A model generated the notes under the pieces. The model had not been told where the DNA came from and did not search any database. It was given only the letters and a program-made list of their open reading frames with translations. The position numbers were made by a program, and so were the translations under genes. Below, in pieces: positions 1-19,804 of a stretch of DNA of 27,122 bases. Origin of the DNA: a virus; IMG/VR virus record IMGVR_UViG_3300020195_000144, positions 1 to 27,122 of that record; one strand, given 5' to 3'. Position 1 is the first letter of the stretch. The number at the start of each line of letters is the position of its first letter.

Positions 1-4
1 CCTG

Positions 5-85
5 ATGCCCCACCCCTCCGAACTTGCCGTCGCTTTTGCCGGCGCCTTCACCCTGACGATGCTGCTGCTGGCGGCGCTGGCGTGA
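5..85 (+). CDS. Tiny hydrophobic peptide (26 aa), unknown
   Basis: A 26-codon ORF beginning MPHPSEL and ending in a hydrophobic stretch rich in Leu and Ala (about residues 8-26), which could be one short membrane segment. Its ATG overlaps a TGA at 3-5 (TGATG), which is probably the stop of a gene lying outside the window. Its own TGA at 83-85 overlaps the GTG start of the next gene (GTGA). Overlaps on both sides fit the translational coupling used throughout this locus and are the main reason to believe it is real. I do not recognise a family, and an ORF this short could occur by chance. Confidence 0.4.
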   Translation: MPHPSELAVAFAGAFTLTMLLLAALA

Positions 86-399
86 CCCTGCACCCCGCAC
101 CCGCCCGCGCGCCCGCCGCGTTGCCACCGCTGACCGCCGAGAGGCGCGCCTACGTCTGCGCCTTCGTGGCGCAGATCGACCTGGCCCTGGCGCTGGCCGA
201 CGGCCAACACACCAGTACAGAGGCTGCTTTGCGGGGATTGTACCGCACCTGGCGCGATGTCGGCTGGACGACCAGCCGCGACGGCGGCGAGACCACTATT
301 CTGCAGTTCCTCGGCATCGAGGGGATCGCATGCGTCTTTGGGGCCGACGCCGTCATCGCCTGGAAGAACGCCGCGCTTGACCGCCTGGCGGTGCGATGA
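82..399 (+). CDS. Hypothetical phage protein (105 aa)
   Basis: The start is GTG at 82, overlapping the preceding TGA by GTGA. The stop overlaps the next ATG (ATGA at 396-399). The first 20 or so residues are Ala/Pro-rich and probably unstructured. The rest looks globular and helical (for example AERRAYVCAFVAQIDLALAL), with a C-terminal hydrophobic patch around FLGIEGIACVFGADAVIAWK. No catalytic motif, signal peptide or clear membrane segment is visible, and I do not recognise the family. It belongs to a run of small co-directional genes leading to the HNH and DUF5131 genes, so it is probably an early or accessory phage gene. Confidence 0.7.
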   Translation: MTLHPAPARAPAALPPLTAERRAYVCAFVAQIDLALALADGQHTSTEAALRGLYRTWRDVGWTTSRDGGETTILQFLGIEGIACVFGADAVIAWKNAALDRLAVR

Positions 400-662
400 T
401 GACCGATCCTGTGGGCGCCGGCAAAGTGCGGGCGGTCCGCGAGCTCTCGATTGAGCAGCTGGCCTACGCGGCGGCATACCGCCTTTCCGACCAGCGCGAG
501 AACGCCCGCACGGCCGTGCTGATGGTCGACCGCGCCGCCAACACGGTCTCCGCCATCACCGGCGGCTGCGAATGTACCGACTGTCGCGAGGCGATGGTGA
601 CGGCCCTCCGCCACCTCGCCGACGCGATGGAGGCCCAAACCGGCACCCCCAAGATCCATTGA
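396..662 (+). CDS. Hypothetical phage protein (88 aa)
   Basis: It starts at ATG 396 in an ATGA overlap with the preceding stop; a second ATG at 399 is an equally possible start. The protein is mostly helical by composition. A small cysteine cluster (CECTDC, about residues 54-59) might bind a metal, but there is no matching second cysteine pair, so a zinc-finger call is not justified. It is followed 18 bp later by the next gene. No family is recognised. Coupling and codon use like its neighbours support a real gene. Confidence 0.65.
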   Translation: MMTDPVGAGKVRAVRELSIEQLAYAAAYRLSDQRENARTAVLMVDRAANTVSAITGGCECTDCREAMVTALRHLADAMEAQTGTPKIH

Positions 663-680
663 CCGAAAGGCACCTCCACG

Positions 681-926
681 ATGACGCGAAATCGCCTCAG
701 CGACCTCCTGTTCGCGCAGATGCGGCGCCTCGGCGACGATGGCCTGACGCCCGAGCAGATCGCGCATGAGGCGGCGCGCACCGCGGCGCTGGTCTCGGTC
801 GCCGACCGGATCACCGACACCGCCGACCTGCAGTTGAAGGCGGCCAGGCTCTTTGCCGAACACGGCAACAACATCCTGCCGATGCTGCCGCAGATCGGCC
901 GGGCGGCGGCGGGCGACCCGGAATGA
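681..926 (+). CDS. Hypothetical phage protein (81 aa)
   Basis: The ATG at 681 is preceded by a weak purine-rich site (AAAGG near 666). The stop TGA overlaps the ATG of the HNH gene (ATGA at 923-926). The sequence is highly helical and amphipathic (LSDLLFAQMRRLGDDGLTPEQIAHE, then AARTAALVSVADRITDTADL), without cysteines, membrane segments or a signal peptide. LTPEQIAHEAARTAAL resembles part of a helix-turn-helix, but the rest of such a fold is not evident. Its tight coupling to the HNH gene suggests co-expression; the function is unknown. Confidence 0.65.
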   Translation: MTRNRLSDLLFAQMRRLGDDGLTPEQIAHEAARTAALVSVADRITDTADLQLKAARLFAEHGNNILPMLPQIGRAAAGDPE

Positions 927-1555
927 GGGGCCGCGCGATCCGCTGGACCCTGGACGAGCTGGCCTGGATCGAGCTGAGCCGCGCCCTGCCGCGGGCCGAG
1001 ATGCTGCGCCGCTTTCGGGTCTGGTTCGACCGCCCCGAGGTGACCGACCGTGCGCTGAAGCAACTCTGCCTGCGCCACGGCTGGACGACCGGGCGCAGCG
1101 GCCGCTTCGAGCCGGGCAACGTCCCGGCAAACAAGGGCGGCCGGATGCCGTACCACCCGAACAGCGCCGCCACCCGGTTCCAGCCCGGGCGCGAGCCGCA
1201 CAACAGGAAATGTCTGGGCCACGAGCGGCTGTCGCAGGAAGGCTACGTCGAGATCAGCGTGGCCGAGACCAACCCGCACACCGGCTATTCCCGGCGTTAT
1301 GTGCAGCAGCACCGCTGGCTGCGGGAACAACTCCACGGCCCGGTGCCCGACGGCCACGCCCTGAAGTGCCTCGACGGCACCCGCACCAACACCGATCCGG
1401 CGAACTGGGCGGCAATCCCCCGCGCCCTGCTGCCCCGCCTGAACGGCCGCTTCGGCCGCGGCTACGACCGCGCCGACCCGCAGGTGCAGCCGGTGCTGCT
1501 GACGATCGCCAAGCTGGAACACAAGGCGCGGCAAGCGCGGAAGGGGAGAGGGTGA
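923..1555 (+). CDS. HNH endonuclease (phage type)
   Basis: A 210-residue protein with the layout of phage HNH nucleases. An N-terminal helical DNA-binding segment (about 1-55) contains the FRVWFDRPEVTDRALKQLC helices. A linker RFEPGNVPANKG (61-72) follows, which is characteristic of this group. The HNH fold lies at about 107-165: YVQQHRWL with His130, the segment GPVPDGH, a CLDGTRTNTDPANW segment with DG at 151-152 and Asn161. HNH proteins nick or cut DNA at a metal-bound beta-beta-alpha fold. In HK97-like phages an HNH protein beside the terminase assists packaging cleavage, but here the gene is far from the terminase and on the opposite strand, so a homing or accessory role is equally possible. 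Both ends overlap neighbours (ATGA at the start, TGATG at the end). Confidence 0.85.
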   Translation: MRGRAIRWTLDELAWIELSRALPRAEMLRRFRVWFDRPEVTDRALKQLCLRHGWTTGRSGRFEPGNVPANKGGRMPYHPNSAATRFQPGREPHNRKCLGHERLSQEGYVEISVAETNPHTGYSRRYVQQHRWLREQLHGPVPDGHALKCLDGTRTNTDPANWAAIPRALLPRLNGRFGRGYDRADPQVQPVLLTIAKLEHKARQARKGRG

Positions 1556-1974
1556 TGAACCGCAGTTTCGGGCCAGCGGCGACCGAGCGTGAGGGAGAAC
1601 CGCTCAAGGTGTCCTGCGTCACGTCTCAGACCTTCTGCTTCCTGCTGGTCGGCGGCGCATGCACCGACACAAAGCCGCCGCGGCCGGTCCCTGACCCAGC
1701 CGTCACGCCGGACTGGTGCAAGTATCGGCGCCAGATCGAGCAGGACGTGGCCGACGCGGCCGAGTTTCGCGCGATGTGCCTCGACACCCTGACCCGCGCC
1801 GAACTGTCGGCGCTGATGAGGGATTACCCCGCCAGATTTCGCGGCTGCCCGTACGGCACAGAGAAACCGTGGCGGCTCACCCAGATGAACGCCGAGATGC
1901 TGCGCCACGCGATCCGCAATGCGCGCAAGGCGGCGACGGGGACTGACGATGCCGCCAACGGGAGGGCAGACTGA
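1555..1974 (+). CDS. Hypothetical phage protein (139 aa)
   Basis: The ATG at 1555 shares a base with the HNH stop (TGATG) and follows a good ribosome binding site (GGGGAGAGGG, 1543-1552). The longer open frame upstream is only a shadow of HNH coding. The first 50 residues are low in structure; residues 20-35 (CVTSQTFCFLLVGGAC) are hydrophobic but too short and Cys-rich for a confident membrane call. The rest is helical and charged (DWCKYRRQIEQDVADAAEFRAM, then LSALMRDYPARFRG). The stop overlaps the DUF5131 start. I recognise no family. The real start could be further in, since the N-terminal part looks unlike a folded domain. Confidence 0.6.
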   Translation: MNRSFGPAATEREGEPLKVSCVTSQTFCFLLVGGACTDTKPPRPVPDPAVTPDWCKYRRQIEQDVADAAEFRAMCLDTLTRAELSALMRDYPARFRGCPYGTEKPWRLTQMNAEMLRHAIRNARKAATGTDDAANGRAD

Positions 1975-2870
1975 TGGCCGCGACAACCATTGAATGGACG
2001 GATTTCACCTTCAACCCCTGGGAAGGGTGTCAGAAGGTGTCACCCGGCTGCGACCACTGCTACGCCGAGGCCCGCGACAAGCGGTTCAGCGGCGGCAGAC
2101 TTTGGGGGCCGCACGCGGCGCGACGGCTGACCTCGGACGCGAACTGGCGCAAGCCGCTGGCGTGGAACCGGGCGGCCGCGGCAGCCGGCACCCGCGCCCG
2201 GGTGTTCTGCGCCTCGCTGGCCGATATTTTCGACACCCACGCCTCGGTCCTGCCCGCTTGGCGCGCGCGGCTCTGGGCGCTGATCCGGGCGACCCCGCAT
2301 CTCGACTGGCAGTTGCTGACCAAGCGCCCGCAGAACATCGCGCGCCTGCTGCCCGAGGACTGGGGCGACGGCTGGCCCCACGTCTGGCTCGGCACCACCG
2401 CCGAAAACCAGCCCGAGGCCGACCGCCGCGTGCCCGTCCTGCTTGCCGCCCCTGCGCGGGTGCGGTTCCTTTCGGTGGAACCGATGCTTGGGCCGGTGAA
2501 CCTGAGGCACCTGGACAATGGCCTGCGGGGCCATGCCAACGGCATCGACGCGCTCACCGGGTATCTCGGCAGCGGCATGTACGGCGACTGGGGACCGCGC
2601 ATCGACTTGGTGATCTGCGGCGGCGAGAGCGGACCCGGCGCGCGCCCGATGCACCCGGACTGGGCGCGATCCCTGCGCGACCAGTGCGTTGCGGCCAAGG
2701 CCGCGTTCTTCATGAAGCAGATGGGCGGGGCGCCGGGCGCGGAGGGTGACAACTGCGGGTGCGCTTTATCCCGCATTATTCGTAACCAACGCTTGACTTG
2801 CTACGCTTGCGGGCGTATATTCGTTACACGGGAGGCGATAGACGCCCCGAAAATGGAGAGACGCAGATGA
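1974..2870 (+). CDS. DUF5131 / phage Gp37-Gp68 family protein with altered C-terminus
   Basis: A 298-residue protein. Residues 1-30 carry the family hallmark NPWEGCQKVSPGCDHCYAE with Cys19, Cys26 and Cys29. Later conserved blocks are LLTKRPQNIARLLP, VWLGTTAENQ, RFLSVEPMLGPV and ICGGESGPGARPMHPDWARSLRDQC. The family is common in alphaproteobacterial phages and is usually placed near radical-SAM-like proteins because of the Cys motif, but its reaction is unknown. Residues up to FFMKQMGGAPG look normal. From about residue 257 the frame runs through the 123-bp promoter-leader cassette (2744-2866), so the last 41 residues are not family sequence, and the stop TGA overlaps the ATG of the next gene. 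The start ATG shares a base with the previous stop, with GGAGGG at 1961-1966. Confidence 0.88.
   Translation: MAATTIEWTDFTFNPWEGCQKVSPGCDHCYAEARDKRFSGGRLWGPHAARRLTSDANWRKPLAWNRAAAAAGTRARVFCASLADIFDTHASVLPAWRARLWALIRATPHLDWQLLTKRPQNIARLLPEDWGDGWPHVWLGTTAENQPEADRRVPVLLAAPARVRFLSVEPMLGPVNLRHLDNGLRGHANGIDALTGYLGSGMYGDWGPRIDLVICGGESGPGARPMHPDWARSLRDQCVAAKAAFFMKQMGGAPGAEGDNCGCALSRIIRNQRLTCYACGRIFVTREAIDAPKMERRR
2744..2866 (+). repeat. Promoter-leader cassette, copy 1 (direct repeat)
   Basis: A 123-bp segment that aligns without gaps to 3462-3584; I count about 16 mismatches (roughly 87% identity). It ends exactly at the ATG of the downstream gene, and both copies continue ATGACC. It contains a sigma-70-type promoter, a short leader with a possible hairpin (GGCG-ATAGA-CGCC) and the ribosome binding site GGAGAG. 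The genes downstream of the two copies are not homologous, so the repeat is a transplanted expression signal and not a duplicated gene. Copy 1 lies inside the 3' end of the DUF5131 gene. Confidence 0.9.
2793..2821 (+). promoter_or_regulatory. Sigma-70-type promoter in cassette copy 1
   Basis: TTGACT (2793-2798), a 17-bp spacer and TATATT (2816-2821). This is close to the TTGACA-N17-TATAAT consensus and stands out in very G+C-rich sequence. Predicted transcription starts near 2828, about 40 nt before the ATG at 2867. Related hexamers surround it (CGTAAC 2781-2786, GCTACG 2800-2805, CGTTAC 2822-2827) and could be repressor half-sites; that part is inference. Confidence 0.68.
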
Positions 2871-3124
2871 CCCAGTTTTCTGTCCACCCCACCGCCCACA
2901 CAGTGCACTCGGTGGTGGCGAGCTTCGTTCCGCTTGGTGGTGACGATCACGATATTCTCACTATCACGCTGGATACAGGCTACAGATTTTCTGTAGATGC
3001 TGAATGCGTGCACGACACGATCGAGGGCGCCGAAGCGATGGCTGCAGTGTGGAGACTGGCGGATGAGCCATTTGTCGAGCCGGAACAAAAGGGGCCGCCG
3101 TCTCTCTGGGCGGCGGTGTCGTGA
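2867..3124 (+). CDS. Small acidic hypothetical protein (85 aa), first gene behind cassette 1
   Basis: The start is ATG 2867, immediately after the cassette with GGAGAG at 2855-2860; it overlaps the DUF5131 stop (ATGA). The upstream extension of the frame is cassette sequence and is excluded. The protein is strongly acidic (13 Asp/Glu against 3 Lys/Arg), with several His and a beta-rich look (DILTITLDTGYRFSVDAE), then a helix (TIEGAEAMAAVWRLADE). No family is recognised. Its small size, acidity and private promoter resemble phage accessory (moron or host-takeover) proteins, but no specific function can be claimed. Its stop overlaps the next start. Confidence 0.72.
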   Translation: MTQFSVHPTAHTVHSVVASFVPLGGDDHDILTITLDTGYRFSVDAECVHDTIEGAEAMAAVWRLADEPFVEPEQKGPPSLWAAVS

Positions 3125-3354
3125 TGGACAAGCACAGCCCCGAAGCCAGGGCCGCGCGCCAGGAAATCCAGCGGCTTTACGGAGAGATCGCCTACGCGGC
3201 TCGCGGGGTGGCAAATCGCCGCCGTCACGCTGCGATCCAAGGATCGAAGCTGGGCCGCGCTTACACCTACATAGAGCCGCATGACGTGGCAGTTGCGGCA
3301 TGGCGTGCCGCGAGCGACGCCTACCACGCCGTCTACCATCCGCAGCGAGGTTGA
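3124..3354 (+). CDS. Small basic hypothetical protein (76 aa)
   Basis: The ATG at 3124 shares a base with the preceding stop (TGATG). A GTG at 3121 (GTGA overlap) is the alternative start and would add one residue. The protein is basic and helical, with ARAARQEIQRLYGEIAYAARG followed by an Arg/Lys-rich segment (NRRRHAAIQGSKLGRA) and a second helix (AVAAWRAASDAYHAVYH). The basic middle could bind nucleic acid, but no defined domain is visible. It is the second gene of the cassette-1 operon, directly after an acidic protein, an arrangement that might reflect an interacting pair (inference). Confidence 0.65.
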   Translation: MDKHSPEARAARQEIQRLYGEIAYAARGVANRRRHAAIQGSKLGRAYTYIEPHDVAVAAWRAASDAYHAVYHPQRG

Positions 3355-3358
3355 CGCC

Positions 3359-3418
3359 TGATGACCATCGCCCTGATCGCCGCCCTGCTGCCCGGCATGA
3401 AAGTGTCGGGCACGGTGC
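3359..3418 (+). repeat. 60-bp direct repeat of 4118-4177
   Basis: Bases 3359-3418 are identical to 4118-4177. The repeat begins at the TGATG overlap before the small gene and covers its first 19 codons. Perfect identity points to a recent duplication or recombination. Homology stops abruptly at 3418/4177, where 3417 onward switches to an inverted match. Confidence 0.93.
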
Positions 3419-3441
3419 CGGTGCCGGGCGTGGCGGGGTAG
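3361..3441 (+). pseudogene. Chimeric truncated copy of the 55-aa Cys-rich gene (26 codons)
   Basis: ATG 3361 to TAG 3441 encodes 26 residues. Residues 1-19 (MTIALIAALLPGMKVSGTV) are identical to the start of the protein at 4120-4287. The tail PVPGVAG is instead the C-terminus of the - strand protein at 4290-4592, which arrives here as an inverted copy of its 3' end (3417-3454 matches the reverse complement of 4277-4314). All the cysteines of the intact paralogue are missing. It is probably a rearrangement scar, although it remains an open frame and could make a short peptide. Confidence 0.75.
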
Positions 3442-3454
3442 GGTCAGGGCGGCG
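3417..3454 (-). repeat. 38-bp inverted copy of 4277-4314
   Basis: Bases 3417-3454 are the exact reverse complement of 4277-4314, the junction where the + strand 55-aa gene and the - strand secreted-protein gene converge. The inverted match overlaps the 60-bp direct repeat by 2 bases (GC at 3417-3418). The breakpoint is therefore a clean direct-to-inverted switch. Confidence 0.92.
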
Positions 3455-3461
3455 GCGTGGC

Positions 3462-3584
3462 GGGTGACAACTTCGGGTGCGATTTATCCTGATTTATTCG
3501 CAACCAACGCTTGACTTGTTACGCTTTATGGCGCATATTCGTTACACGGGCAGAGACAGACGCCCCGCAAATGGAGAGACGCAG
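3462..3584 (+). repeat. Promoter-leader cassette, copy 2 (direct repeat)
   Basis: Second copy of the 123-bp cassette, ungapped against 2744-2866 and ending at the ATG at 3585. It occupies nearly all of the gap between the chimeric ORF and the next gene. Differences cluster in the promoter spacer and leader. The -35, the CGTTACACGGG block and the last 16 bases with GGAGAG are conserved, and both copies keep a possible leader hairpin (GGGC/GCCC here). Confidence 0.9.
3511..3539 (+). promoter_or_regulatory. Sigma-70-type promoter in cassette copy 2
   Basis: TTGACT, a 17-bp spacer and CATATT, at the same offset as in copy 1. The -10 differs from copy 1 by one base (C for T in its first position), which predicts somewhat weaker activity. 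GTTACG inside the spacer start and CGTTAC just after the -10 are possible operator half-sites. It would drive 3585-4287. Confidence 0.63.
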
Positions 3585-3827
3585 ATGACCACCGCCGAGA
3601 AAATTGAAACGATCCGCAATCTTGCCGAAGTCGATTTTGTCAGCATCTGGAAGGGCGAGCGCGCTTACATCAACCTTAAATCTTGCGACAAGAGCTTCGC
3701 CGGCAACCGCACGCACCAGTTTTACGTTGATATCAAGAGCGGCGGTCTGGTCGATCAGATGGGCAAGGGCACGACCAGCCGGGCGTTTGACGCCCAGCGC
3801 GCAATCGTCGCCGCGGCGGTGCTGTGA
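3585..3827 (+). CDS. Small hypothetical protein (80 aa), first gene behind cassette 2
   Basis: The start is ATG 3585 after GGAGAG in the cassette; the longer open frame is cassette sequence. The N-terminus is a helix (TTAEKIETIRNLAEVDFVSIW), then a compact beta-rich region (GERAYINLKSCDKS, THQFYVDIKSGGLVDQ) and a C-terminal helix (SRAFDAQRAIVAAAVL). It is near neutral to slightly basic and unrelated in sequence to the first gene behind cassette 1. No family is recognised. G+C is lower than in the neighbouring genes over the first 150 bases, which may hint at separate acquisition. It is coupled to the next gene by overlap. Confidence 0.72.
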   Translation: MTTAEKIETIRNLAEVDFVSIWKGERAYINLKSCDKSFAGNRTHQFYVDIKSGGLVDQMGKGTTSRAFDAQRAIVAAAVL

Positions 3828-4120
3828 TGACCGCCCAGCCCGCCACCGTCTGGCTGCGCAAGACCGGCAGCGGATTTGCCAACATCGCCGATACATGGTC
3901 GGTGGTCGGCGGCGCCGACGACTGGACCGACGAGCCTGATGGCGGCGACTACCCCCCGGCGCTCTACGTGCTGCCCAACGGGCTTGTCGTGGACCCGCGC
4001 CAAATCATCCGCAACGCGGCTGGCGAAGCGTGCGACATCATCGACGGCTACGACGGGCAGCCGCGGCTGCTGACCGGGTGGCGCGCCAGCGACCCGGCCT
4101 ACAACCTGCAGGCGGCGTGA
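3827..4120 (+). CDS. Small acidic hypothetical protein (97 aa)
   Basis: The ATG at 3827 shares a base with the preceding stop (TGATG); GTG 3824 is an alternative start. The protein is acidic (about 13 Asp/Glu against 6 Lys/Arg) and rich in Trp, Gly and Pro (VVGGADDWTDEPDGGDYPPALYVLPNG), with a pattern of short beta strands and turns. No cysteine motif, signal or membrane segment is seen, and no family is recognised. It is the second gene of the cassette-2 operon. The stop overlaps the ATG of the Cys-rich gene. Confidence 0.68.
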   Translation: MTAQPATVWLRKTGSGFANIADTWSVVGGADDWTDEPDGGDYPPALYVLPNGLVVDPRQIIRNAAGEACDIIDGYDGQPRLLTGWRASDPAYNLQAA

Positions 4121-4177
4121 TGACCATCGCCCTGATCGCCGCCCTGCTGCCCGGCATGAAAGTGTCGGGCACGGTGC
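4118..4177 (+). repeat. 60-bp direct repeat of 3359-3418
   Basis: Parental copy of the 60-bp perfect repeat, covering the stop-start overlap and first 19 codons of the 55-aa Cys-rich gene. The gene here is intact, so this is probably the donor and 3359-3418 the derived copy. Confidence 0.9.
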
Positions 4178-4287
4178 ATTGCTGCGCCTACTGCCGCACG
4201 GCGTTCATCGGCCGGGCCGATGCGCTGTTCTGCTCGGCCTCCTGCCGGGTTGCATCGGCGCGGGCTGCGAAGGCAGCGCCGCCCTGA
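4120..4287 (+). CDS. Small CxxC...CxxxC zinc-ribbon-like protein (55 aa)
   Basis: The start is ATG 4120, overlapping the previous stop (TGATG). The N-terminus is hydrophobic (TIALIAALLPG). It is followed by a compact metal-site motif: His20, Cys21, Cys22, Cys25, then FCSASC with Cys38 and Cys42, and a basic tail (RVASARAAKA). The CxxC-x12-CxxxC spacing followed by Arg resembles small zinc-binding proteins of phages and bacteria that end in a CSxxCR motif. It probably binds zinc; the target is unknown. Its stop lies 2 bp from the stop of the convergent - strand gene. A truncated copy is at 3361-3441. Confidence 0.72.
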   Translation: MTIALIAALLPGMKVSGTVHCCAYCRTAFIGRADALFCSASCRVASARAAKAAPP

Positions 4288-4314
4288 CCCTACCCCGCCA
4301 CGCCCGGCACCGGC
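4277..4314 (+). repeat. 38-bp segment repeated in inverted orientation at 3417-3454
   Basis: This segment spans both stop codons at the convergent gene boundary (TGA 4285-4287 on +, TAG 4292-4290 on -). Its exact reverse complement is at 3417-3454. No U-rich terminator follows on either strand. Confidence 0.88.
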
Positions 4315-4592
4315 GCCGCGTCCCGCACCTGTTGCCACGACTCGCCGGAGGCAACGATGCAGGTCGGCCCGCTGGGTAGGGTGACAGTGATGGTCCATGT
4401 GCCGGTTTCGATTGAGGCATATAGTTCCACCATGGCACCATTTTGCCCCAGCCCAATGCCTTGCATGGTTTCGCCGTAGCCTTCGGCCAGACGGACCACA
4501 ATCTCTTGATGTGTAGCGCAGTTGCCCTGCTGTGCCGCCGCCGGGGCAGCAAGCAGCAGCGATGCGATGACGGCGCGAATGAGCGCGTTCAT
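4290..4592 (-). CDS. Secreted hypothetical protein with signal peptide (100 aa)
   Basis: The start is ATG 4592, with AAAGGA 8 nt upstream; a 15-codon upstream extension has no such site. Residues 1-22 form a typical Sec signal peptide (MNALIRAVIASLLLAAPAAA, with AAA-QQ as the likely cleavage site). The mature part has two Cys (CATHQ, TCIVAS) that could form a disulfide, and the pattern GYGETMQGIGLGQNGAMVEL then TWTITVTLP. Similar small exported proteins occur in alphaproteobacterial genomes and prophages, with no function known to me. It is the last gene of the leftward operon, so an envelope role at late infection is possible (inference). Confidence 0.8.
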   Translation of the reverse strand: MNALIRAVIASLLLAAPAAAQQGNCATHQEIVVRLAEGYGETMQGIGLGQNGAMVELYASIETGTWTITVTLPSGPTCIVASGESWQQVRDAAPVPGVAG

Positions 4593-4637
4593 AGGGTATC
4601 CTTTCGGTGGAGGGTGGCGGCCCCAACGGCCAGGCAC

Positions 4638-4739
4638 TCACAACACCTCCACCACCCACGCCGAGGCTGCGATCATCAGCACCAGCACGATCAGGACCAG
4701 CGCCAGGGCGATGATGAAGCCTGGCGCTTTCTCTCTCAC
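4638..4739 (-). CDS. Tiny single-span membrane peptide (33 aa)
   Basis: GTG at 4739 overlaps the TGA of the upstream gene (GTGA). The 33 residues consist of a short basic N-terminus (MREKAPG) and one long hydrophobic segment (FIIALALVLIVLVLMIAASA) ending in VVEVL. It is clearly a single membrane span with the N-terminus probably cytoplasmic. It lies in the lysis/accessory tail of the late operon, so an antiholin, holin-helper or membrane-depolarising role is conceivable, but nothing in the sequence decides this. Confidence 0.6.
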   Translation of the reverse strand: MREKAPGFIIALALVLIVLVLMIAASAWVVEVL

Positions 4740-4855
4740 AACAGTCCGGCCCTGCCGGGTTCCATGCCGACGAAGATCAGCGCCGAAGCCGCCAGAAGCA
4801 CCGCACCGGCGATAGCCTCGTCCGCCGCAAGCGCAATATCGGCGCGGGCGGTCAT
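4736..4855 (-). CDS. Tiny hydrophobic peptide (39 aa)
   Basis: ATG 4855 overlaps the methyltransferase stop (ATGA), and its own stop overlaps the next GTG. The N-terminus is acidic (MTARADIALAADEA), followed by a hydrophobic segment (IAGAVLLAASALIFVGM) long enough for one membrane span and a short tail (EPGRAGLL). Coupling on both sides supports translation. No family is recognised; with the 33-aa peptide it makes a pair of small membrane proteins after the holin-like gene. Confidence 0.6.
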   Translation of the reverse strand: MTARADIALAADEAIAGAVLLAASALIFVGMEPGRAGLL

Positions 4856-5772
4856 TCGGCGGCCTCCGCGAAAATATCCAGTTGCTCCGGCGCCGCGGCG
4901 ACCTTGACGCAGCCCGGCGAAAACCAGACGCATTCCTGATCCTTTGTCCCGGTGCCGCCGTAGGTGCTTTTCTTCCGGGACCATTGCAGGACGGTCCATC
5001 CGGGCATCTCGTGCTCGCCCATGTGACCGCACAGCGCGATCCGCATGGTGGCGTTTGCCCGCGCCCATTCGGCAACCGCGTCGGCCACCGGCTGCCCGCT
5101 GCCATAGACGCCATCGAAGCCGCGATATGGCGGGTCCAGCAGGACCGCGGCGCTGTCGCCGCCATAGTGCGAATTGAGGCACCTGTCCCAGTTGCCGTGA
5201 ATGACGCGAACCCGCTCAAGCCGCGCGGCAAGCCGGTGCAGCCATACCCATGCGGTCCTGCCGCCGGATGTCAGCATGTCGCCCTGCCCGGCGGTGCTCA
5301 CATGCGGCACCTTCCCCAGCGCCTGCACGCCCCGCCCGGCGTCTGGCGCCTTCCACCAGTCGCACCAGCCGCCGCCGATCCATGAGCATTGGCCCCACAG
5401 CCACCAGCCGGCGACCTGTGCATCTCCCGGCCATTCCGCATCGTGCAGCGCCGTCACCAGCGCCTCGCGCCGTGCCATCAACCAGACGTGGCGGGCGCCC
5501 TGATCGACGTGCAGAACCGGATAGTCGGCCCATTGCGCGACGGCGCCCGGATCGTGCTTTACCGCCCGCCAGAAGTTGGCAATGAAGCCGCTGGCGTCGC
5601 CGACAACCTCAAGCGACGCCGGCTTTCCGGGCTTGGCAAGCATCACCGCCAGCGACCCGCAGAACGGCTCGATATACTGTTTCGGGCTGCCGAAGCGGCG
5701 CCATATCTCCCTGGCAATGTCGCGCTTGCCGCCGAAATACGGGAACGGCGCCTTGAGGGCGGTCACCGCCAC
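4852..5772 (-). CDS. DNA adenine methyltransferase, D12 class
   Basis: A 306-residue protein if started at GTG 5772 (GTG 5766 is also possible); the longer open frame runs into the holin-like gene and lacks domain sequence. The SAM-binding motif PFPYFGGKR is at 9-17, the second conserved block EPFCGS at 35-40, and the catalytic DPPY at 213-216. This order is that of alpha-class (Dam/D12) N6-adenine methyltransferases, which transfer methyl from S-adenosylmethionine to adenine in DNA. The middle 120 residues, Trp-rich (WWLWGQCSWIGGGWCDWWK), are the likely target-recognition region. No restriction nuclease is adjacent, so this is an orphan enzyme, probably for protection from host restriction. 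The start region overlaps nothing essential and has a weak ribosome binding site. Confidence 0.9.
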   Translation of the reverse strand: MAVTALKAPFPYFGGKRDIAREIWRRFGSPKQYIEPFCGSLAVMLAKPGKPASLEVVGDASGFIANFWRAVKHDPGAVAQWADYPVLHVDQGARHVWLMARREALVTALHDAEWPGDAQVAGWWLWGQCSWIGGGWCDWWKAPDAGRGVQALGKVPHVSTAGQGDMLTSGGRTAWVWLHRLAARLERVRVIHGNWDRCLNSHYGGDSAAVLLDPPYRGFDGVYGSGQPVADAVAEWARANATMRIALCGHMGEHEMPGWTVLQWSRKKSTYGGTGTKDQECVWFSPGCVKVAAAPEQLDIFAEAAE

Positions 5773-5810
5773 ACCGCCGCCAGCGTTATCGCCATTTCCA
5801 TTCAGGTTCG

Positions 5811-6062
5811 TCAGGCATCCCCGTGAGCTGTCTCTGCGCGGCGGAAATAGCCCGCCACGAAGTTGACGACCGAGATCAGCGTGGCGGAGCCACCAGCGAC
5901 CACCCACAAGCTGAATTCGTTGGCGCAGGATGCTGAGAGATCGGGGATGCGGGTCGCGATGAAGCCAGCCAGGGCTGTGATCACGACAGTGCCGATGGCA
6001 CCGCTGGCGGCTACTGCGGCCATCTTTCGGGTCGGGGACGGAGATGGTTGGTCAATCAACAC
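5811..6062 (-). CDS. Holin-like two-span membrane protein (83 aa)
   Basis: GTG 6062 follows AAAGGA at a normal distance. A polar Ser/Pro N-terminus precedes two hydrophobic segments, about 14-37 (MAAVAASGAIGTVVITALAG) and 48-70 (FSLWVVAGGSATLISVVNFV), and a short charged tail (RRAETAHGDA). Size, two spans and charged C-terminus fit class II holins, which open the inner membrane at the end of infection. Its place after the tail genes and next to a peptidoglycan-binding fragment supports a lysis role. The family cannot be named from sequence alone; a non-holin membrane protein remains possible. Confidence 0.65.
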   Translation of the reverse strand: MLIDQPSPSPTRKMAAVAASGAIGTVVITALAGFIATRIPDLSASCANEFSLWVVAGGSATLISVVNFVAGYFRRAETAHGDA

Positions 6063-6073
6063 GGTATGTCCTT

Positions 6074-6265
6074 TCAGGGTTCGTTGATGATGGCAGCGAT
6101 CCGGGCGAGCTTGGCCGCCTCGGCCGAGACAGCGGGAACGGGCGCCAGCCCCGCCAGCAACCTGTGCAGCGCGCCACGGGTGTCGGGGCCGGGGTCGCCG
6201 TCAACCCAGAGGCCGGCGTCGCGCTGAAATCCCCGCACGTCGTTTGGTGCCCGGCCCAGCAGCAC
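6074..6265 (-). pseudogene. Peptidoglycan-binding domain fragment (63 aa)
   Basis: The frame encodes a PG_binding_1-like repeat: VRGFQRDAGLWVDGDPGPDT followed by RGALHRLLAGL, matching the FQ...GL.vDG..GP.T..AL pattern of cell-wall-binding domains. The only conventional start is GTG 6265, with no ribosome binding site. The homologous-looking frame continues upstream (to a TGA at 6362-6364) past the previous gene's stop without any ATG. No catalytic domain is attached. It looks like the remnant of an endolysin or wall hydrolase, or a gene with a frameshifted or non-standard start. The TGA at 6074-6076 lies 11 bp before the holin-like start. Confidence 0.55.
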
Positions 6266-6303
6266 CAGCGCCGTGCGGGTATAGGTGGCGAGGCGGCCAC
6301 TGG

Positions 6304-6615
6304 CTACCGCCGATCCAGCCCGCGCAAAATGTCGAGGGTCAGAATCTGCCCGGCTTTCAATTCATCGATCGCCTGTTTGAGCGTGTCAAACCGGTCGGAG
6401 TTGCGGCTGGATGTCAACTCGTTGGCCCTCGTCCGCCCCTCCATCGAGGCCTGCCATTCCCGCTGAGCCTTGATCGCCTCGCGAAACTCCCGGCTTTCTA
6501 CCGCCAGCGTCGCCATCGACGTTCCGAGGTAGAGTCCCGTGGCGACGAGTCCTGCCCCGATTGTCCAGATCAGTGGCAGGCTGAGCCGGACGCCCCTTTC
6601 GTCAATATCGCTCAT
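6304..6615 (-). CDS. Membrane-anchored coiled-coil protein (103 aa), lysis-region
   Basis: ATG 6615 has AGAGGA 8-10 nt upstream. A short charged N-terminus (MSDIDERGVR) is followed by one membrane span (about 14-38, LPLIWTIGAGLVATGLYLGT) and a long charged helical region with heptad character (REFREAIKAQREWQASMEG, then SDRFDTLKQAIDELKAGQ). One span plus periplasmic coiled coil is the layout of inner-membrane spanins (Rz-like), but such small proteins are also common as uncharacterised phage genes. No partner outer-membrane lipoprotein is seen embedded or adjacent, so the spanin idea is weak. It follows a 47-bp gap and precedes the peptidoglycan-binding fragment. Confidence 0.72.
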   Translation of the reverse strand: MSDIDERGVRLSLPLIWTIGAGLVATGLYLGTSMATLAVESREFREAIKAQREWQASMEGRTRANELTSSRNSDRFDTLKQAIDELKAGQILTLDILRGLDRR

Positions 6616-6662
6616 TACGTATTCCTCTACTCGACGCGCTGTCAGAACTGCCCTTTTCTCAC

Positions 6663-7016
6663 CTAAATTCCCAGCACGGCGCGAGCAGCTCTCCGCCCTG
6701 CCAAAACATCTGCCGGGATTGCAGCCCCGGTTTCGGTTTTGCGGTCAAGAAACGCCTGAGTTTCCTTCATGTATATTTTCGCCTTTACGATCTCGGCTTG
6801 GGCTGACATCGCGGCCAGTTCCGCCTTGGTCGGCCCCGGCGGGCGCGTCCATGTATCCCAGCCCAGCTCCTTGATGTAGTCGGCGGCGCCGTCCACCTCG
6901 GCCTGGAAGGCCGCCCGGTCTTCCGGACCATAGCCTCGGCGGTGGTTTCCGCCCTCGTCGTTCTCCCAGAGGACATTGGCGGTGCCGTCCCGCACTTCCA
7001 CGGTTTTCAGTTTCAT
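6663..7016 (-). CDS. Hypothetical protein downstream of DUF2793 tail gene (117 aa)
   Basis: ATG 7016 lies 1 bp after the DUF2793 stop. The N-terminal half is beta-rich and charged (VEVRDGTANVLWENDEGGNH); the second half is a long helix (TKAELAAMSAQAEIVKAKIY then AFLDRKTETGAAIPADVLAG). No domain is recognised with confidence. The position directly behind a tail fibre/tip gene is typical of tail-fibre assembly or chaperone proteins, which is the likeliest role by context only. The gene is complete, with no membrane segment or signal peptide. Confidence 0.75.
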   Translation of the reverse strand: MKLKTVEVRDGTANVLWENDEGGNHRRGYGPEDRAAFQAEVDGAADYIKELGWDTWTRPPGPTKAELAAMSAQAEIVKAKIYMKETQAFLDRKTETGAAIPADVLAGRRAARAVLGI

Positions 7017-7017
7017 A

Positions 7018-8061
7018 TCATGCCACCTTGTAGGTCAGGGAAATGCGGTAGTCGCTGGTCGCGCTGAAGTGCGCGTGGGTCAAAGCGGAGGTGCCGGTCG
7101 TTAAGAAGTAAACCAGCGTGGCGTAGCTCGTGTTCTGCAAGGGAAACAGTTTCGGGGCCTGCGCATCCGGTAGCGCCAGGCCGCTGCTGAAGCCGACTTC
7201 CCCGGACGTGCTGGCGGCGGACGAGTTGAAGACCACAAACGGCAACGCACTTATCCGCATTGCCCCGGAACACGCCCCGAGCGAGGTGACGACAATTCGG
7301 GCGGTCACAGTCACGAAGTCACCGACACGCTGGTAATGCCCGGTGGCTGTGGAAAGCGTGGCAAGGTTGGTCCCGTCGCCGAAAGTCGGGGTCCAGGTGC
7401 CGGTTTCGGCCTGCGCCGGCGCCAAGACGATCCAGTCGGTGCCGTTATACCGCGCCGCGCTGTCCCGGTCGGTTCTGATCCAGCCCGCGGGCAGCGCCGC
7501 GCCGGTCGGCGTCTTTGCCGTCTTGACGCCCAGCGCGTCGGTGTTGATCGTGGTGGCGCCGGTATTCGCGTTGGTGGCGCGGAACCTGATCTCCAGTCCC
7601 GTGGGAATGGAAGCAAGTGCCAGCCCCGTTGTGATGGTGATTGCATTCGCAGTGCCGCCATAGGTGACATAGGCGGACGGGACCAGATTGCCCTGGTGGA
7701 AGGCGAGATTGCCGCCGATGGTGGTCCCCGCCCGCGCCCAGGCGGCGGCCGACCAGATCACCTCTTCGGCGTCATCCTCGACCCATGCCCGCCAGCCATC
7801 GACAGGGACGAAGAACTGCCAGGCAGCATCGCGCCACTGGGCAACTTCGCCCTCGTGCCCGGTCCACAGTCCGGTCGCCACCGAGGCGACGATGTGGCGG
7901 TCGCCTTCGGTCGGGCTGCCGGGCGGCGCGGTGCCGACGCGGCTCAGCACCGACAGTTGCACGATGGCGTCGAGGTCGCTCAGCGCCTCGTTGACGGTGA
8001 CGTGCTTCTGCGCCTGGCTGGCGTCGAGCAGAGTCAGGGCAAGATGCGGTGTGTCGGCCAT
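7018..8061 (-). CDS. DUF2793 domain tail tip/fibre protein
   Basis: A 347-residue protein. Residues 1-110 are a DUF2793 domain: LALTLLDASQAQKHVTVNEA, then TAPPGSPTEGDRHIV and the Trp-rich WQFFVPVDGWRAWVED. The middle (about 120-215) is a linker with beta repeats (ITTGLALASIPTGLEIRFRA). The C-terminal part (TGTWTPTFGDGTNL, then YQRVGDFVTVTARIVV) resembles beta-sandwich receptor-binding or carbohydrate-contact domains at the end of tail fibres. DUF2793 proteins in Rhodobacterales phages follow the GTA gp15 homologue, as here (10-bp gap). Probable role: distal tail or host-recognition structure. The extreme C-terminus, SDYRISLTYKVA, is a typical terminal beta strand. Confidence 0.85.
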   Translation of the reverse strand: MADTPHLALTLLDASQAQKHVTVNEALSDLDAIVQLSVLSRVGTAPPGSPTEGDRHIVASVATGLWTGHEGEVAQWRDAAWQFFVPVDGWRAWVEDDAEEVIWSAAAWARAGTTIGGNLAFHQGNLVPSAYVTYGGTANAITITTGLALASIPTGLEIRFRATNANTGATTINTDALGVKTAKTPTGAALPAGWIRTDRDSAARYNGTDWIVLAPAQAETGTWTPTFGDGTNLATLSTATGHYQRVGDFVTVTARIVVTSLGACSGAMRISALPFVVFNSSAASTSGEVGFSSGLALPDAQAPKLFPLQNTSYATLVYFLTTGTSALTHAHFSATSDYRISLTYKVA

Positions 8062-8071
8062 GTCAAATCCT

Positions 8072-11000
8072 TCAGAACGTCAGTGCGACGGTGAAATTCG
8101 GGCTGGCGCCGCCGGCAGCGGTCTGGCGGATGCGGATGGTCAGGGTGTCGCCCTGCACGATGGCGCCGCCGAGGTCGGCAACCTGCTGCGCCTGAGTATA
8201 AGTCGCCTCGGGGGTCGTCGTGGTCAGCGTGCGCAGGACGGCGCTCGCGCCACTGAGGATGTCCACCTCGAAGCCCGTCGGCAGGTCGGTTTCGGGCACA
8301 TCCAGCCCGGTCCAGCTGTCGGCGGCAGGCGCGCGGTCGCGGCGGACCCAGCGCAGCACCTGGTCGCCGGCGACGAACGGGCGGCGGCCGGGATCCTCGG
8401 CCTGCAGCGGCGAGAACGGGAACAGGCCGCGGCCCAGCGGCGTGAAGCTTGCGGTGGCCCAGCTTGGGTCGGACGGCGCCCGCGCGGCCGGACCTGCGCT
8501 CCATGCCCAGGCCAGGCCAATTTCCGCAGCCGTGACCGGCAGCGGTACAAGCGCGTTGTCCAGCACCACCACGCGGGCGCCGTCCGGCGCCGGATCCCCG
8601 ATCGCCCACTCGGTGCCGCGCTGGCCGCGCAGCAGGCGGGTCAGCCGGTAGCTGCCCGGCGCAGTCAGCGCGACGGTGCCGGCCTGGACGATCTCCCACA
8701 CACCTGCGGCGGTTTCGATCGCCAGCGCGTTGCCGCCGGCAAACAGCGCGAGGTCGGTGATCGAGGCGAGCGTGCCGTAATCCAGATCGATGAGGATTTC
8801 ATTGGCGGTATCGAACCGGGCCACCGGGCCGGATGGCAGGGCGGCCGTCAGACGGCCGATCCGCGCCCGCTGTGTCGCGGTCGCGAAAGGGGCCACCGTC
8901 GCCGCCGAAGGGCCGCGCCAGATCGCCACCGTGCCGGGCCAGGGCGTGACCGATACCGCCAGCAGCGGCTGCTGCGCCTGAAGGCTGTCGTCAAGCTGCG
9001 GCAGGTCCAGGAACACCAGCGTGGGCGGCTGCAGCGCCACCGGCCGCGACAGTCGGGCCGGCAGCGGCTGCGCCGGCGGCAGGTCGTAAATCTCGCGGTC
9101 ATGGCGTATCGCGTCGATCTGGCGCGCGGTGCCGTCGGCGATCCTGCCGATGCGATAATCCGCAGTCCGGCCGTCGTGGGTGACGCCGATCACGTCGGAC
9201 GGGTCCAGCGCCAGCAGGGACGGCGGCAGCGTGGCGCCCAGCGTCTCCAGCCCGGTCCATGCCTCGCTCAGCGCCCGGCGTGCGCGCTTCTCGGCCTCCT
9301 CCGGCGGCACCGCCACCGGATGCGCTTCCAGCGCGATGCGCCGCACCGCGTCGCCGGCCCGCCGGACCTCGACCGGGGTCGGCTCGTATTCGCCGTCCGA
9401 CCGCATCACCGTCCATTTCAGCACCTGCGGCAACTCTTTGGGCTCGCCGCGGGTCAATTCAAACGGCTCGCCGTCGCCGGTGACGACAAGCGATCCGGTT
9501 GCCACAGTGGCAACCCGGCCGCGACCGCGGGGCAGGAAACGGATCACGCCCTGGCTTTCGACCGCGTCAAAACCGAAGTGCAGCGCCAGGGTGGCGATCG
9601 ATGCGCGCGGTGCCTCCAGCGCCCCGATGACATATCCCTCGACTGCGCCGACAAGGGCCGCCGCGTCGATCTGGGCCGTTGCCAGCCCGGCGCGCAGGCA
9701 CAGGTCACGGACCAGCGCCGCCAGCGATACCGACCCGAGCCGGCCGTTCAGCCAATGCCCCAGCCGCCAGTTTGCGCCATCGGCCCAGACATCATCCAGT
9801 CCCGGGAAAGCAGGATAGGGCCGCGCATCCCACGTCCAGGCGGCGCATTCGGACAGGTCCAGCATCGGCGCTGCGTAGACGCTGGACACCGGGTTGTTGG
9901 CGGTGACGGCCCACCACGGCAGCACCGCCTCGAAATAGGCGCGCTGGATCGCATCGTCGCGCCAGCCCCGCGAGAAATACGGCACGAGGCTTTCCGACGA
10001 CTTCGGGTCCACAAAGACGTTCGGCTGGTTGGTGCCACGGTCGATCGCCGGGCAGCCGAATTCGGTGAACCGGACCGGCTTCGACTGCGGCACCCATGCG
10101 GTGGGCGTGCCGCTTTCGGTGCCGCCGGGGCGGTCGTAATGCAGGTTCAGCCACCAATCCCTGATCGCCTTTGTCCGAAACACCCATGGCTTGGACGCCG
10201 CGCCATCGGTGATCGTGGTGCGGGTCTGCGCCGCGCGGGCGGCGTCGCTGGCGTAGAACCAGTCCCAGCCCTCGCCGCCCTCGATGTTGTCCTGCAGATA
10301 GGCCCGGTCGTGGACCCACGGCGCACCGGCCACGGCATCGAGATGCTCAAAGCCGTCGCGCCAGTCACTGAGCGGCATGTAATTGTCGATGCCGACAAAG
10401 TCGATGTTGGCATCCGACCAGAGCGGATCGAGGTTGAAGTAGACATCGCCGGTGCCGTCGCCCGGCTGGTGGCCGAAATACTCCGACCAGTCGGCCGCAT
10501 AGCCGATCTTGGTGCCGGACCCGAGGATGGTGCTCACGTCGGCAGCGAGGGTCTTCAATGCGGCGACGGCGGGATAGGTGCTCGCGCCAGAGCGGATCGA
10601 GGTCAGCCCGCGCATTTCCGAGGAGACGACGAAGGTGTCGACCCCGCCCGCCGCAGCGCAAAGGTGCGCATAGTGCAGCACCATGCGGCGCAGGCCCCAG
10701 TCGGTGCCGCCGGTCCATGTCACCGTCTCGCCGGACACGGCAAAGTCGGACGCCGCCGCGGTGCCCAGGAAAGCCGCGACCTGCGTGCCGGCGGTTGCCG
10801 TCTTGTCGACGGTGCCCGTGAACCCCGCCGCCGGCGAGCAGGTGATCCGCCCGCGCCACGGGAACGCCGCCTGGCCGTTGGTGGCCGCGTTGGCGCTGTA
10901 GGGGTTCGGCAGGGTGTTGGCCGCCGGCACGTCCATCAGGATGAACGGATAAAAGGTGACGCGAAAGCCTCGCGCTGTCAGTTCCTGGATCGCATCCACG

Positions 11001-12016
11001 ATCGACGCATCGTTCGGCGTGCCGCCATAGACCGGATCGGTGCCGGCAGGCACCCGGCTGATCAGATAAGCGCTCGAACGGGCGATGCCGTTCACCGCCC
11101 ACGCCATCGGCGTCGTGGACTTCACCGCCTGCTCGACGCCAGGCTTGAGCAGGCAACTGCCCGCCCGCAGGTCGTCGCCGAACCATGCCACCACCAGCGT
11201 CACGCTTTCGACCGCGGGCGCCAGCGCCTCCAGTTCGTCCAGCGCGGCGATCAGGTCGGGCTTGTCCAGCACGGCGTTCAGGTTCTCGGCGCCGACATCG
11301 GGCGCCGTCCGGCGCACCGTCTCGGGCGCATAGGCGAACTCGCCCGAGGCCGGGATCAGCGTGATCGCGCGGACCAGCCCCTCGGCAGTATCGGCATCGG
11401 CCAGCGGGCAAAACACCTCGAAGGATAACTGCGGGACGCGGTTGCCGAACGCCCCAAGCTGCAGATCCTCGAAGACGATATAGGCGGTGCCGCGATAGGC
11501 CGGGGCGCCGCCGGTGGCCGCAGCGATCAGCGCGTCGGCCACCTGCGCCTCGTCGCCGGGATACCAGCGCCACGTCGCCTCGGTCAGGTCCATCAGATCG
11601 CCGTCGGCCCAGATCCTGCCGATGCCACCGATCGGCCCCTCGCACAGGGCGACGGCAAAGCTCAGGCTGTAGGTGTACTCCGTCGTGTCGACCCTGGCAT
11701 TCTTGCTGCCGCTGCGGGTCGTGGTCGCCGTCTCCGCAAAGTCGGTGGCCCAGATCACCGTGCCGCCCAGCCGCATGCGCCCGTAAAGCCGCGGGATCAC
11801 CGCGCCCTCGCTGGCGCCGGTGATCTGCAGGGAATCCAGGCGCTGGCCGTCGATCCGCTGCGCCGGGGTCAGCGATGCCAGCAGCCACTGGTCGACCTTC
11901 GACCCCACCAGCAGGCCCAGTTGCGAGCCGATCACCACCGACGAGACGCCAAGGATGCCGCCACCGATGCTGGCGCCGATCGCCGATCCGGCAGCGGCAA
12001 GGGCAATACTGGCCAT
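8072..12016 (-). CDS. GTA gp15-like megatron / phage tail tip protein with TIM-barrel domain
   Basis: A 1314-residue protein starting at ATG 12016 (MASIALAAAG), which overlaps the peptidase stop (ATGA); the longer frame is shadow. A hydrophobic Gly-rich N-terminus (about 5-40) contains possible membrane-insertion helices. A beta-rich tail-tip region follows. The GTA TIM-barrel (glycoside-hydrolase-like) domain lies at about 340-735, with FRVTFYPFILMDVP, NIDFVGIDNYMPLSDWRDG and VRFTEFGCPAIDRGTNQPNV. A Phage-tail_3 type domain comes next (VIRFLPRGRGR, FELTRGEPKELPQ) and a C-terminal beta-rich domain. In RcGTA this protein forms the tip of the baseplate and the channel through which DNA leaves. 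Length is close to the RcGTA gp15 size (about 1300). It is the longest gene in the window. Confidence 0.92.
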   Translation of the reverse strand: MASIALAAAGSAIGASIGGGILGVSSVVIGSQLGLLVGSKVDQWLLASLTPAQRIDGQRLDSLQITGASEGAVIPRLYGRMRLGGTVIWATDFAETATTTRSGSKNARVDTTEYTYSLSFAVALCEGPIGGIGRIWADGDLMDLTEATWRWYPGDEAQVADALIAAATGGAPAYRGTAYIVFEDLQLGAFGNRVPQLSFEVFCPLADADTAEGLVRAITLIPASGEFAYAPETVRRTAPDVGAENLNAVLDKPDLIAALDELEALAPAVESVTLVVAWFGDDLRAGSCLLKPGVEQAVKSTTPMAWAVNGIARSSAYLISRVPAGTDPVYGGTPNDASIVDAIQELTARGFRVTFYPFILMDVPAANTLPNPYSANAATNGQAAFPWRGRITCSPAAGFTGTVDKTATAGTQVAAFLGTAAASDFAVSGETVTWTGGTDWGLRRMVLHYAHLCAAAGGVDTFVVSSEMRGLTSIRSGASTYPAVAALKTLAADVSTILGSGTKIGYAADWSEYFGHQPGDGTGDVYFNLDPLWSDANIDFVGIDNYMPLSDWRDGFEHLDAVAGAPWVHDRAYLQDNIEGGEGWDWFYASDAARAAQTRTTITDGAASKPWVFRTKAIRDWWLNLHYDRPGGTESGTPTAWVPQSKPVRFTEFGCPAIDRGTNQPNVFVDPKSSESLVPYFSRGWRDDAIQRAYFEAVLPWWAVTANNPVSSVYAAPMLDLSECAAWTWDARPYPAFPGLDDVWADGANWRLGHWLNGRLGSVSLAALVRDLCLRAGLATAQIDAAALVGAVEGYVIGALEAPRASIATLALHFGFDAVESQGVIRFLPRGRGRVATVATGSLVVTGDGEPFELTRGEPKELPQVLKWTVMRSDGEYEPTPVEVRRAGDAVRRIALEAHPVAVPPEEAEKRARRALSEAWTGLETLGATLPPSLLALDPSDVIGVTHDGRTADYRIGRIADGTARQIDAIRHDREIYDLPPAQPLPARLSRPVALQPPTLVFLDLPQLDDSLQAQQPLLAVSVTPWPGTVAIWRGPSAATVAPFATATQRARIGRLTAALPSGPVARFDTANEILIDLDYGTLASITDLALFAGGNALAIETAAGVWEIVQAGTVALTAPGSYRLTRLLRGQRGTEWAIGDPAPDGARVVVLDNALVPLPVTAAEIGLAWAWSAGPAARAPSDPSWATASFTPLGRGLFPFSPLQAEDPGRRPFVAGDQVLRWVRRDRAPAADSWTGLDVPETDLPTGFEVDILSGASAVLRTLTTTTPEATYTQAQQVADLGGAIVQGDTLTIRIRQTAAGGASPNFTVALTF

Positions 12017-12489
12017 CAGGCGGACTCCCCGGTCGCTGCCGGAAACAGGAAGGCAAAGGTGATGCTGCGCCGCCAGCGCGCGGACAGCGCATCCTCGACC
12101 ACGCCGCGGCGCGCATCGGCGTGCAGCATCTTGTCGGGCGCGGTCAACAGCCCGGCATGCCTGGCGATGCCGCGGCGGTGCCGGGCGAACAGCAGCAGCG
12201 CACCGGGACCGGCCGACGCGGGGTCGATCTCGACCAGCCACGGCCGCAGGCCCTCGGCCAGGCGCTGGCCGGCGGCACCCGGCGCCGCGGTATCGGCCCA
12301 GTGGAACTCGTAGGGCGGCGGCAACGGCGCGGGGCGGCCCGTCAGCGACGCCCAGATGCCGCGCACCAGCCCCAGGCAATCGCAGCCCGCGCCGCACAGG
12401 CTGGCCTGGTGGTGGAACGGCGTGCCGATCCACAGGCGGGCGGCGGCGATCACCCGGGCGGGGTCGGCGGATGGCACAGCGACGGTCAT
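12016..12489 (-). CDS. NlpC/P60 family tail peptidase (GTA gp14-like)
   Basis: A 157-residue protein from ATG 12489, overlapping the hub gene stop (ATGA); the longer frame is shadow. Cell-wall peptidase of the NlpC/P60 fold: RLWIGTPFHHQASLCGAGCD leads to the catalytic Cys38 in CDCLGLVRG, and the His block is RGIARHAGLLTAPDKMLHAD. These enzymes cut peptide stems of peptidoglycan; on the virion the protein sits at the tail tip and locally opens the wall during entry. In RcGTA the equivalent gene lies between the hub (gp13) and gp15, as here. Several extra Cys near the active site (Cys32, Cys36) are common in the phage subfamily. Confidence 0.92.
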   Translation of the reverse strand: MTVAVPSADPARVIAAARLWIGTPFHHQASLCGAGCDCLGLVRGIWASLTGRPAPLPPPYEFHWADTAAPGAAGQRLAEGLRPWLVEIDPASAGPGALLLFARHRRGIARHAGLLTAPDKMLHADARRGVVEDALSARWRRSITFAFLFPAATGESA

Positions 12490-13370: not shown

Positions 13371-13993
13371 CGGCGGACCTCGACCAGCGGGATCGCGTCG
13401 ATGCCGCCGATCGCCAGATTGTCCAGCGTCGCCTCGATGCTGTCCGAGTCGAACCTGACCGGCACATCGAAGGTGAAGCCTGCCGTCACGACGACGCCGT
13501 TGCCCGGCGCCGCGCTGAACGTGACGATGCCGGTGGTGGTGTCCACCGTCCAGCCCGATGCCGTCGGCGTCCCGTCCAGCGCGATCAGCACGCTGCCGGT
13601 CACCGGCTTGGTGATCGGCCGATACCAGGTGGTGCCGCCCGAGACATAGGCCCGGCGCAGCGCGTAGGCCACGACCACGGCGTTGCCGGTGCCCAGCGAC
13701 TGGTCCGTCGCCGCCTGCGTGGCGGACGGCAGGCCGGACTTCCAGTCCAGCGGATCGCGAAACCGGAAGCCGTGCAACCGGCCGTTGCGCGCCTCGAAGA
13801 ACGCGATCACCGCGGCCAGCTGGTCGGCGGTGCGGATGCCATACGAAACATCGTAGCGGCGGCGCGAATCAGTCCAGCTGGCGTTGCGTTCCTCTTCGCC
13901 GCTGTCCAGCGCAACGATCTGGGTGCGCCGCTGCGGCCCGCCTCGCGCCCCGCGGCTGACGGGCTCGGGAAAACGGACCTCGTGAAAGGCCAT
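13367..13993 (-). CDS. DUF2460 distal tail protein (GTA gp12-like)
   Basis: A 208-residue protein matching DUF2460 (TIGR02217): MAFHEVRFPEPVSRGARGGP, RRRYDVSYGIRTADQLAAVI, FFEARNGRLHGFRFRDPLDW and a C-terminal beta domain ending in FDSDSIEATLDNLAIGGIDA with IPLVEVRR. In RcGTA this family makes the distal tail ring that joins the tail tube to the hub. The length is usual for the family. The ATG shares one base with the tape measure stop and the stop overlaps the hub start. Confidence 0.93.
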   Translation of the reverse strand: MAFHEVRFPEPVSRGARGGPQRRTQIVALDSGEEERNASWTDSRRRYDVSYGIRTADQLAAVIAFFEARNGRLHGFRFRDPLDWKSGLPSATQAATDQSLGTGNAVVVAYALRRAYVSGGTTWYRPITKPVTGSVLIALDGTPTASGWTVDTTTGIVTFSAAPGNGVVVTAGFTFDVPVRFDSDSIEATLDNLAIGGIDAIPLVEVRR

Positions 13994-18336: not shown

Positions 18337-18341
18337 CAGAA

Positions 18342-18548: not shown

Positions 18549-18579
18549 CGGCGCCTCCTTGCCTTGTTCGGAATGATGG

Positions 18580-19801: not shown

Positions 19802-19804
19802 GGC

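Follow-up and report, generated by a model that had tools for sequence, protein, structure and literature searches.

The window, by which we mean the whole stretch of DNA that was analyzed, is a 27,122-bp metagenomic virus record that was classed as lacking end repeats and represents part of a phage genome. Its late genes are carried on the minus strand and encode a terminase, a head protease, a major head protein, a tail tube protein, a major tail protein, and a tape measure protein. The major head protein has 180 relatives in IMG/VR, with identities of up to 66%. Within the tape-measure gene region, we also noted two 174-bp direct repeats (16768-16941 and 16999-17172) that are 70% identical. 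On the plus strand, a DUF5131 gene (1974-2870) is followed by two modules of small genes, each headed by one copy of a repeated segment, here called the cassette (copy 1, 2742-2872; copy 2, 3460-3590; both plus strand). The first module consists of orf85 (2867-3124), for which no family match below E = 0.05 was obtained, and orf77 (3121-3354), whose start overlaps the orf85 stop and which likewise had no family match. The second module consists of orf80 (3585-3827), orf98 (3824-4120), and gene A (4120-4287), which encodes a cysteine-rich product of 55 amino acids (CCxxC...CxxxC). The convergent gene B (4290-4592, minus strand) follows. The product of orf80 matched phrog_16984, a family of unknown function, and is 45% identical to homologous proteins of Mannheimia phages. 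Searches with orf80, orf85, and gene A in viral contigs found no relatives, and neither did searches with orf80 in 385 genomes and in plasmids.

We then compared the two cassette copies with each other. A preliminary description of this DNA had reported a 123-bp ungapped repeat with about 107 identical positions, and the exact count between 2744-2866 and 3462-3584 was indeed 107/123 (E = 2.3e-39). The homologous register widens to 131 bp, still without a gap, with 17 differences between 2742-2872 and 3460-3590, and both ends of the block are sharp. Each copy comprises an upstream stem-loop region, a predicted promoter, a leader, a ribosome-binding site (RBS), and a start codon plus one further codon, and has a G+C content of 51 to 55%, compared with 68% for the window. 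Seven of the differences fall in the first 51 bp, ahead of the −35 element, four in the spacer, one in the −10 element (T/C), and five in the leader, while the −35 element, the 15 bp preceding the start, and the ATGACC at the start itself contain none; the RBS-to-start part of copy 1 (2852-2872) is thus identical in copy 2. The repeat had been described as ending exactly at the ATG. It does end in the start region, but homology reaches one codon past each start, to ATG ACC, before identity drops immediately to background. ATGACC also opens orf80, orf98, and gene A, so the extra codon carries little weight, and homology in effect ends with the start codon. We found no similarity between the two downstream genes, so each copy heads an unrelated small gene, as proposed. 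A five-codon frame (ATG-GAG-AGA-CGC-AGA-TGA; 2852-2870 and 3570-3588), whose stop overlaps the downstream ATG, is present in both cassettes and may be due to chance.

Both copies contain the previously reported TTGACT-N17-(T/C)ATATT arrangement, a predicted σ70-type promoter. In copy 1 it reads TTGACT-N17-TATATT (2793-2821, plus strand), with transcription expected to start near 2828, and in copy 2 it reads TTGACT-N17-CATATT (3511-3539, plus strand), with a start expected near 3546. The match scores were 10/12 and 9/12, respectively. On both strands of positions 1 to 7000 these were the only two σ70-like matches, compared with 0.7 expected from shuffled sequence, while positions 7001 to 27000 contained one weak match against 1.3 expected. 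Shuffled cassettes attained the promoter score in 0.8% of trials for copy 1 and in 7% for copy 2, and the match in copy 2 is therefore not significant by itself (P = 0.07). Moreover, because the copies are homologous, the two matches amount to approximately one independent observation. From these sequence matches, we infer that both sites function as promoters. The GGAGAG noted earlier in each copy was found at 2855-2860 and 3573-3578 (plus strand), 6 nt upstream of the ATG in both cases, and is the putative Shine-Dalgarno sequence of orf85 and orf80, respectively. In contrast, the suggestion that the leader is prone to form hairpins did not hold up: folding of the region downstream of the expected transcription start was no better than that of shuffled sequence (z-scores of −1.7 to +0.35). 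A search of Rfam gave no match at the cassette.

The identity of the core elements in the two copies, together with GTTAC-type repeats flanking the promoter, could also point to a pair of operator-bearing promoters controlled by a phage repressor, in which case the modules would form a co-regulated lysogeny or early regulon. We regard this explanation as quite improbable. Copy 2 does not preserve the inverted GTAAC...GTTAC or the spacer palindrome seen in copy 1 and has no inverted repeat of at least 6 bp, and the window yielded no identifiable repressor gene.

Upstream of the promoter in copy 1, the sequence TGCGGG-N10-CCCGCA followed by TTATT (2754-2775, plus strand) could form a weak stem-loop. 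This raised the question of a composite element, similar to the promoter early stem-loops (PeSLs) of T4-type phages, in which a stem-loop terminator followed by a promoter and start codon would provide an insulated joint at which recombination could exchange gene modules. Copy 2 retains five of the six stem pairs, one of them through a double change, which agrees with such a composite, but approximately 9 to 10% of random trials did likewise, and the fold z-scores were −1.78 for copy 1 and −0.28 for copy 2. In addition, the loop is 10 nt long, the T run is weak, and only two copies exist. Taken together, the upstream stem-loop is at most suggestive of a weak terminator, and we consider the PeSL-like composite unlikely.

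To define the left edge of copy 1, we examined the DUF5131 gene, the last approximately 43 codons of which run through the cassette. Residues 4 to 252 of its 298-residue product match positions 2 to 217 of the 243-position Pfam profile, and the match to the corresponding PHROG profile reaches position 234 of 299. The terminal part of both profiles is unmatched, and DUF5131 similarity gives out roughly a dozen bases short of the cassette. Most of the 80 viral DUF5131 homologues end with a GKxxxGRxLDG motif (69/81 records by a simple pattern), which is missing from the gene in the window. In copy 2, a stop closes the same reading frame, and the cassette is therefore not a conserved coding region. 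The left edge of copy 1 therefore falls where an older gene has lost its end, the conserved DUF5131 C terminus having been replaced by cassette-encoded residues. The amount of C terminus lost is uncertain, because the tail of one homologue (L130) is naturally shorter and different. The DUF5131 gene also matches the PADLOC candidate-defense models PDC-M41B and PDC-M30B.

A second truncation lies directly upstream of copy 2. Here, a fragment comprising the 5′-most 63 bp of gene A (3356-3418, plus strand), which is a 98% copy of 4115-4177, is joined through an overlap of approximately 6 bp to a 42-bp inverted copy (3413-3454, minus strand; 98%) of 4277-4318, where the convergent ends of gene A and gene B meet. 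The patch as a whole (3356-3454) represents either a fold-back rearrangement or a chimera. Inspection by eye gave no convincing sign of the terminal inverted repeats or target duplication that would mark an insertion element. The two modules are laid out in parallel, as cassette, orf85, orf77, and gene A fragment and as cassette, orf80, orf98, and gene A. With an identity of 98%, against 87% between the cassette copies, the duplicate of gene A is of much more recent origin than the split between the cassettes, indicating that at least two events of different ages took place. Since short-overlap junctions of this kind are typical of chimeras and the window is a metagenomic contig, an assembly or amplification artifact could have linked variants of the locus from two strains in a tandem that does not exist. 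Such an origin is unlikely, given that the modules carry entirely different open reading frames, the cassettes differ at 17 positions, and no simple collapse or duplication fits. Morons are extra phage genes that carry their own promoter. With a predicted promoter at the head of each, the modules may resemble them in this respect. They differ from them in that no terminator closes either module, as we found no terminator-like site on the plus strand after 3354 or after 4287.

To place the locus in the context of related phages, we turned to the closest relative, a 61.6-kb record (L188) that was reached via gene B and is 93% identical to the window over 6298-7730. The block common to both ends on the left at window position 4283, and the relative lacks the cassette, orf80, gene A, and both modules. 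The relative thus shares the flank yet lacks the modules, which places the modules in a part of the genome that varies among close relatives.

The preliminary description had anticipated further copies of the repeat, forming a multicopy set that marks co-regulated genes, but our searches did not bear this out. We found no third copy at any useful score in the window, no match by blastn among 50,697 phages and 72,556 plasmids, and no copy in the 80 related viral records (48 plus 32). Two exact gapped patterns found no cassette in IMG/VR, although exact patterns overlook diverged copies. Searches of 385 alphaproteobacterial genomes returned only two 27-nt pieces, which is about the level expected by chance for that many searches. 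A genome-wide pattern scan gave 14 matches over unrelated taxa, none of them named as Rhodobacterales, and these were judged to be chance. A 16S pattern used to find a Rhodobacterales reference genome gave four matches, all of the mismatched variant. A family of such elements was therefore not shown by these searches. The alternative put forward earlier, a single recent duplication absent from all relatives, agrees with the absence from the relatives searched, but its recency is contradicted by the 87% identity of the copies.

A related possibility is a one-off segmental duplication without special mobility, in which a second gene set captured a neighboring promoter once and selection kept its expression. 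With only two copies, adjacent and in the same orientation, and nothing similar in the phages, plasmids, and viral or bacterial genomes searched, this explanation comes close to an even chance. It fits less well with the divergence values, 13% between the cassettes and 2% for the duplicate of gene A, which require at least two events of different ages, and the parallel layout suggests duplication at the level of the module rather than of the promoter.

We next compared the cassette with known systems. Mobile promoters, or promoter propagation (Matus-Garcia et al. 2012; van Passel et al. 2014; both cited in PMC8049555), are described as repeats spread in bacterial genomes. As in that account, a short repeated promoter-bearing segment, nearly identical between copies, precedes nonhomologous genes of one genome; unlike in that account, the window has two adjacent copies in a phage and none elsewhere, with no recurrence at other sites or in other genomes among incomplete collections and a partial phage genome. 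PeSLs (Arbiol et al. 2010; Comeau et al. 2014; both cited in PMC4503421) are reported to be elements of T4-type myoviruses that occur in many copies. The cassette may likewise pair a promoter-like site with a stem-loop among accessory genes, in a phage region where genes are shuffled, but it is present in two copies in an unrelated phage, with a siphophage-like late cluster (terminase, head, tail-tube, and tape-measure genes, by family names only), and its stem-loop is weak and not significant. The cassette resembles a mobile promoter or a T4 PeSL in how it may work, and membership of neither class can be claimed.

The preliminary description had also likened the repeat to the start-associated sequences (SAS) of actinobacteriophages. 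In Cluster K mycobacteriophages, SAS are 13-bp elements (GGGATAGGAGCCC) located 3 to 7 bp before the start codon in the nonstructural half of the genome, with optional 17-bp inverted repeats (ESAS) and 11 to 19 copies per genome, and a role in translation initiation has been suggested (PMC3203893). The cassette is likewise repeated immediately upstream of start codons of nonstructural genes. It differs from SAS in sequence, reading AAATGGAGAGACGCAG-ATG at this position, in size (131 bp, including a promoter), and in copy number, with two copies in 27 kb of a partial genome, and its likely level of action is different. The repeat is therefore not an SAS.

A self-repeat scan of the relatives revealed a separate start-associated repeat of 63 to 72 nt, with the consensus GCGCCTTGGGCAAGCGC...CGTCGTGAGACG...CCCTTAGATGGAGGCC-ATG. 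A model of this leader, built from 15 examples and searched in the 80 relatives, matched most of them, commonly twice and always on the coding strand, before the major head gene and again approximately 3.3 kb downstream before a tail protein gene. Of the 132 matches listed, about 60 were strong, and the weakest are probably chance. Examples include L084:474-563 and 3778-3866, L045:5318-5408 and 8627-8713, and L034:7512-7597 and 14973-15062, and many of the records L017 to L096 carry the leader. The first hairpin (GCGC-CTTGGGCAA-GCGC variants) was paired in 98.5% of cells and showed 22 double-change cells compared with 3.5 ± 1.5 in shuffles, counts of a kind that relatedness inflates, from an alignment that had been fitted to the model. 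A second hairpin with a GTGA loop changes in step, as judged by eye. Rfam gave no match to the leader at gathering level (eight sources) or at E values of up to 1 (two sources), and the leader model found no match in the window. Two further repeats came from individual relatives: CCCGCCCGCGCAAGCCGAGGGCGTGACGG precedes two tail-region genes (L027:15332-15415 and 18284-18365), and the GGAGACGCAGATGA and GGAGACGCAGATG leaders before two genes (L168:5672 and 5966) resemble the last bases of the cassette, a candidate that we rejected as only a short shared RBS-like match.

The locus contains a duplication with promoter-like and RBS-like sequences, truncations, and local rearrangements, and we describe it as a duplicated expression cassette, of a known kind and with a predicted function, in a rearranged accessory locus. 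On balance, we think it probable that the repeat is a compact expression cassette heading short operons made up of small accessory genes, in a siphophage region prone to recombination. In this model, a housekeeping-type promoter, 5′ leader, RBS, and start codon would drive small accessory operons at the boundary between rightward accessory genes and leftward late genes, giving each gene set its own transcription and translation, uncoupled from the upstream operon. Illegitimate or homology-assisted recombination would have joined two versions of one locus in tandem, with the C terminus of DUF5131 being lost where copy 1 begins and gene A being cut short to the left of copy 2. On the simplest reading, the two modules would be former alleles of a single accessory slot, and this order of events is presumed. 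The homology of the cassettes may aid further exchange, and the cassette would thereby promote it. Mobility of the cassette would be hypothetical, as no relative carries it. The only two copies are in one 27-kb metagenomic fragment. The broader proposal, that the cassette is one of a set of lineage-specific transplantable stem-loop, promoter, and start units serving as recombination joints for accessory gene pairs, with the tandem representing two alleles, has a low probability in our judgment.

If the cassette works as proposed, the phage would express newly acquired genes by means of a ready-made promoter and start. This would provide an example outside the T4 and mycobacteriophage groups, in which comparable elements have been described. 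It is a modest example, limited to two copies, and the covarying hairpin leader that precedes capsid and tail genes in related marine phages offers a lead that is easier to test and may matter more than the cassette.
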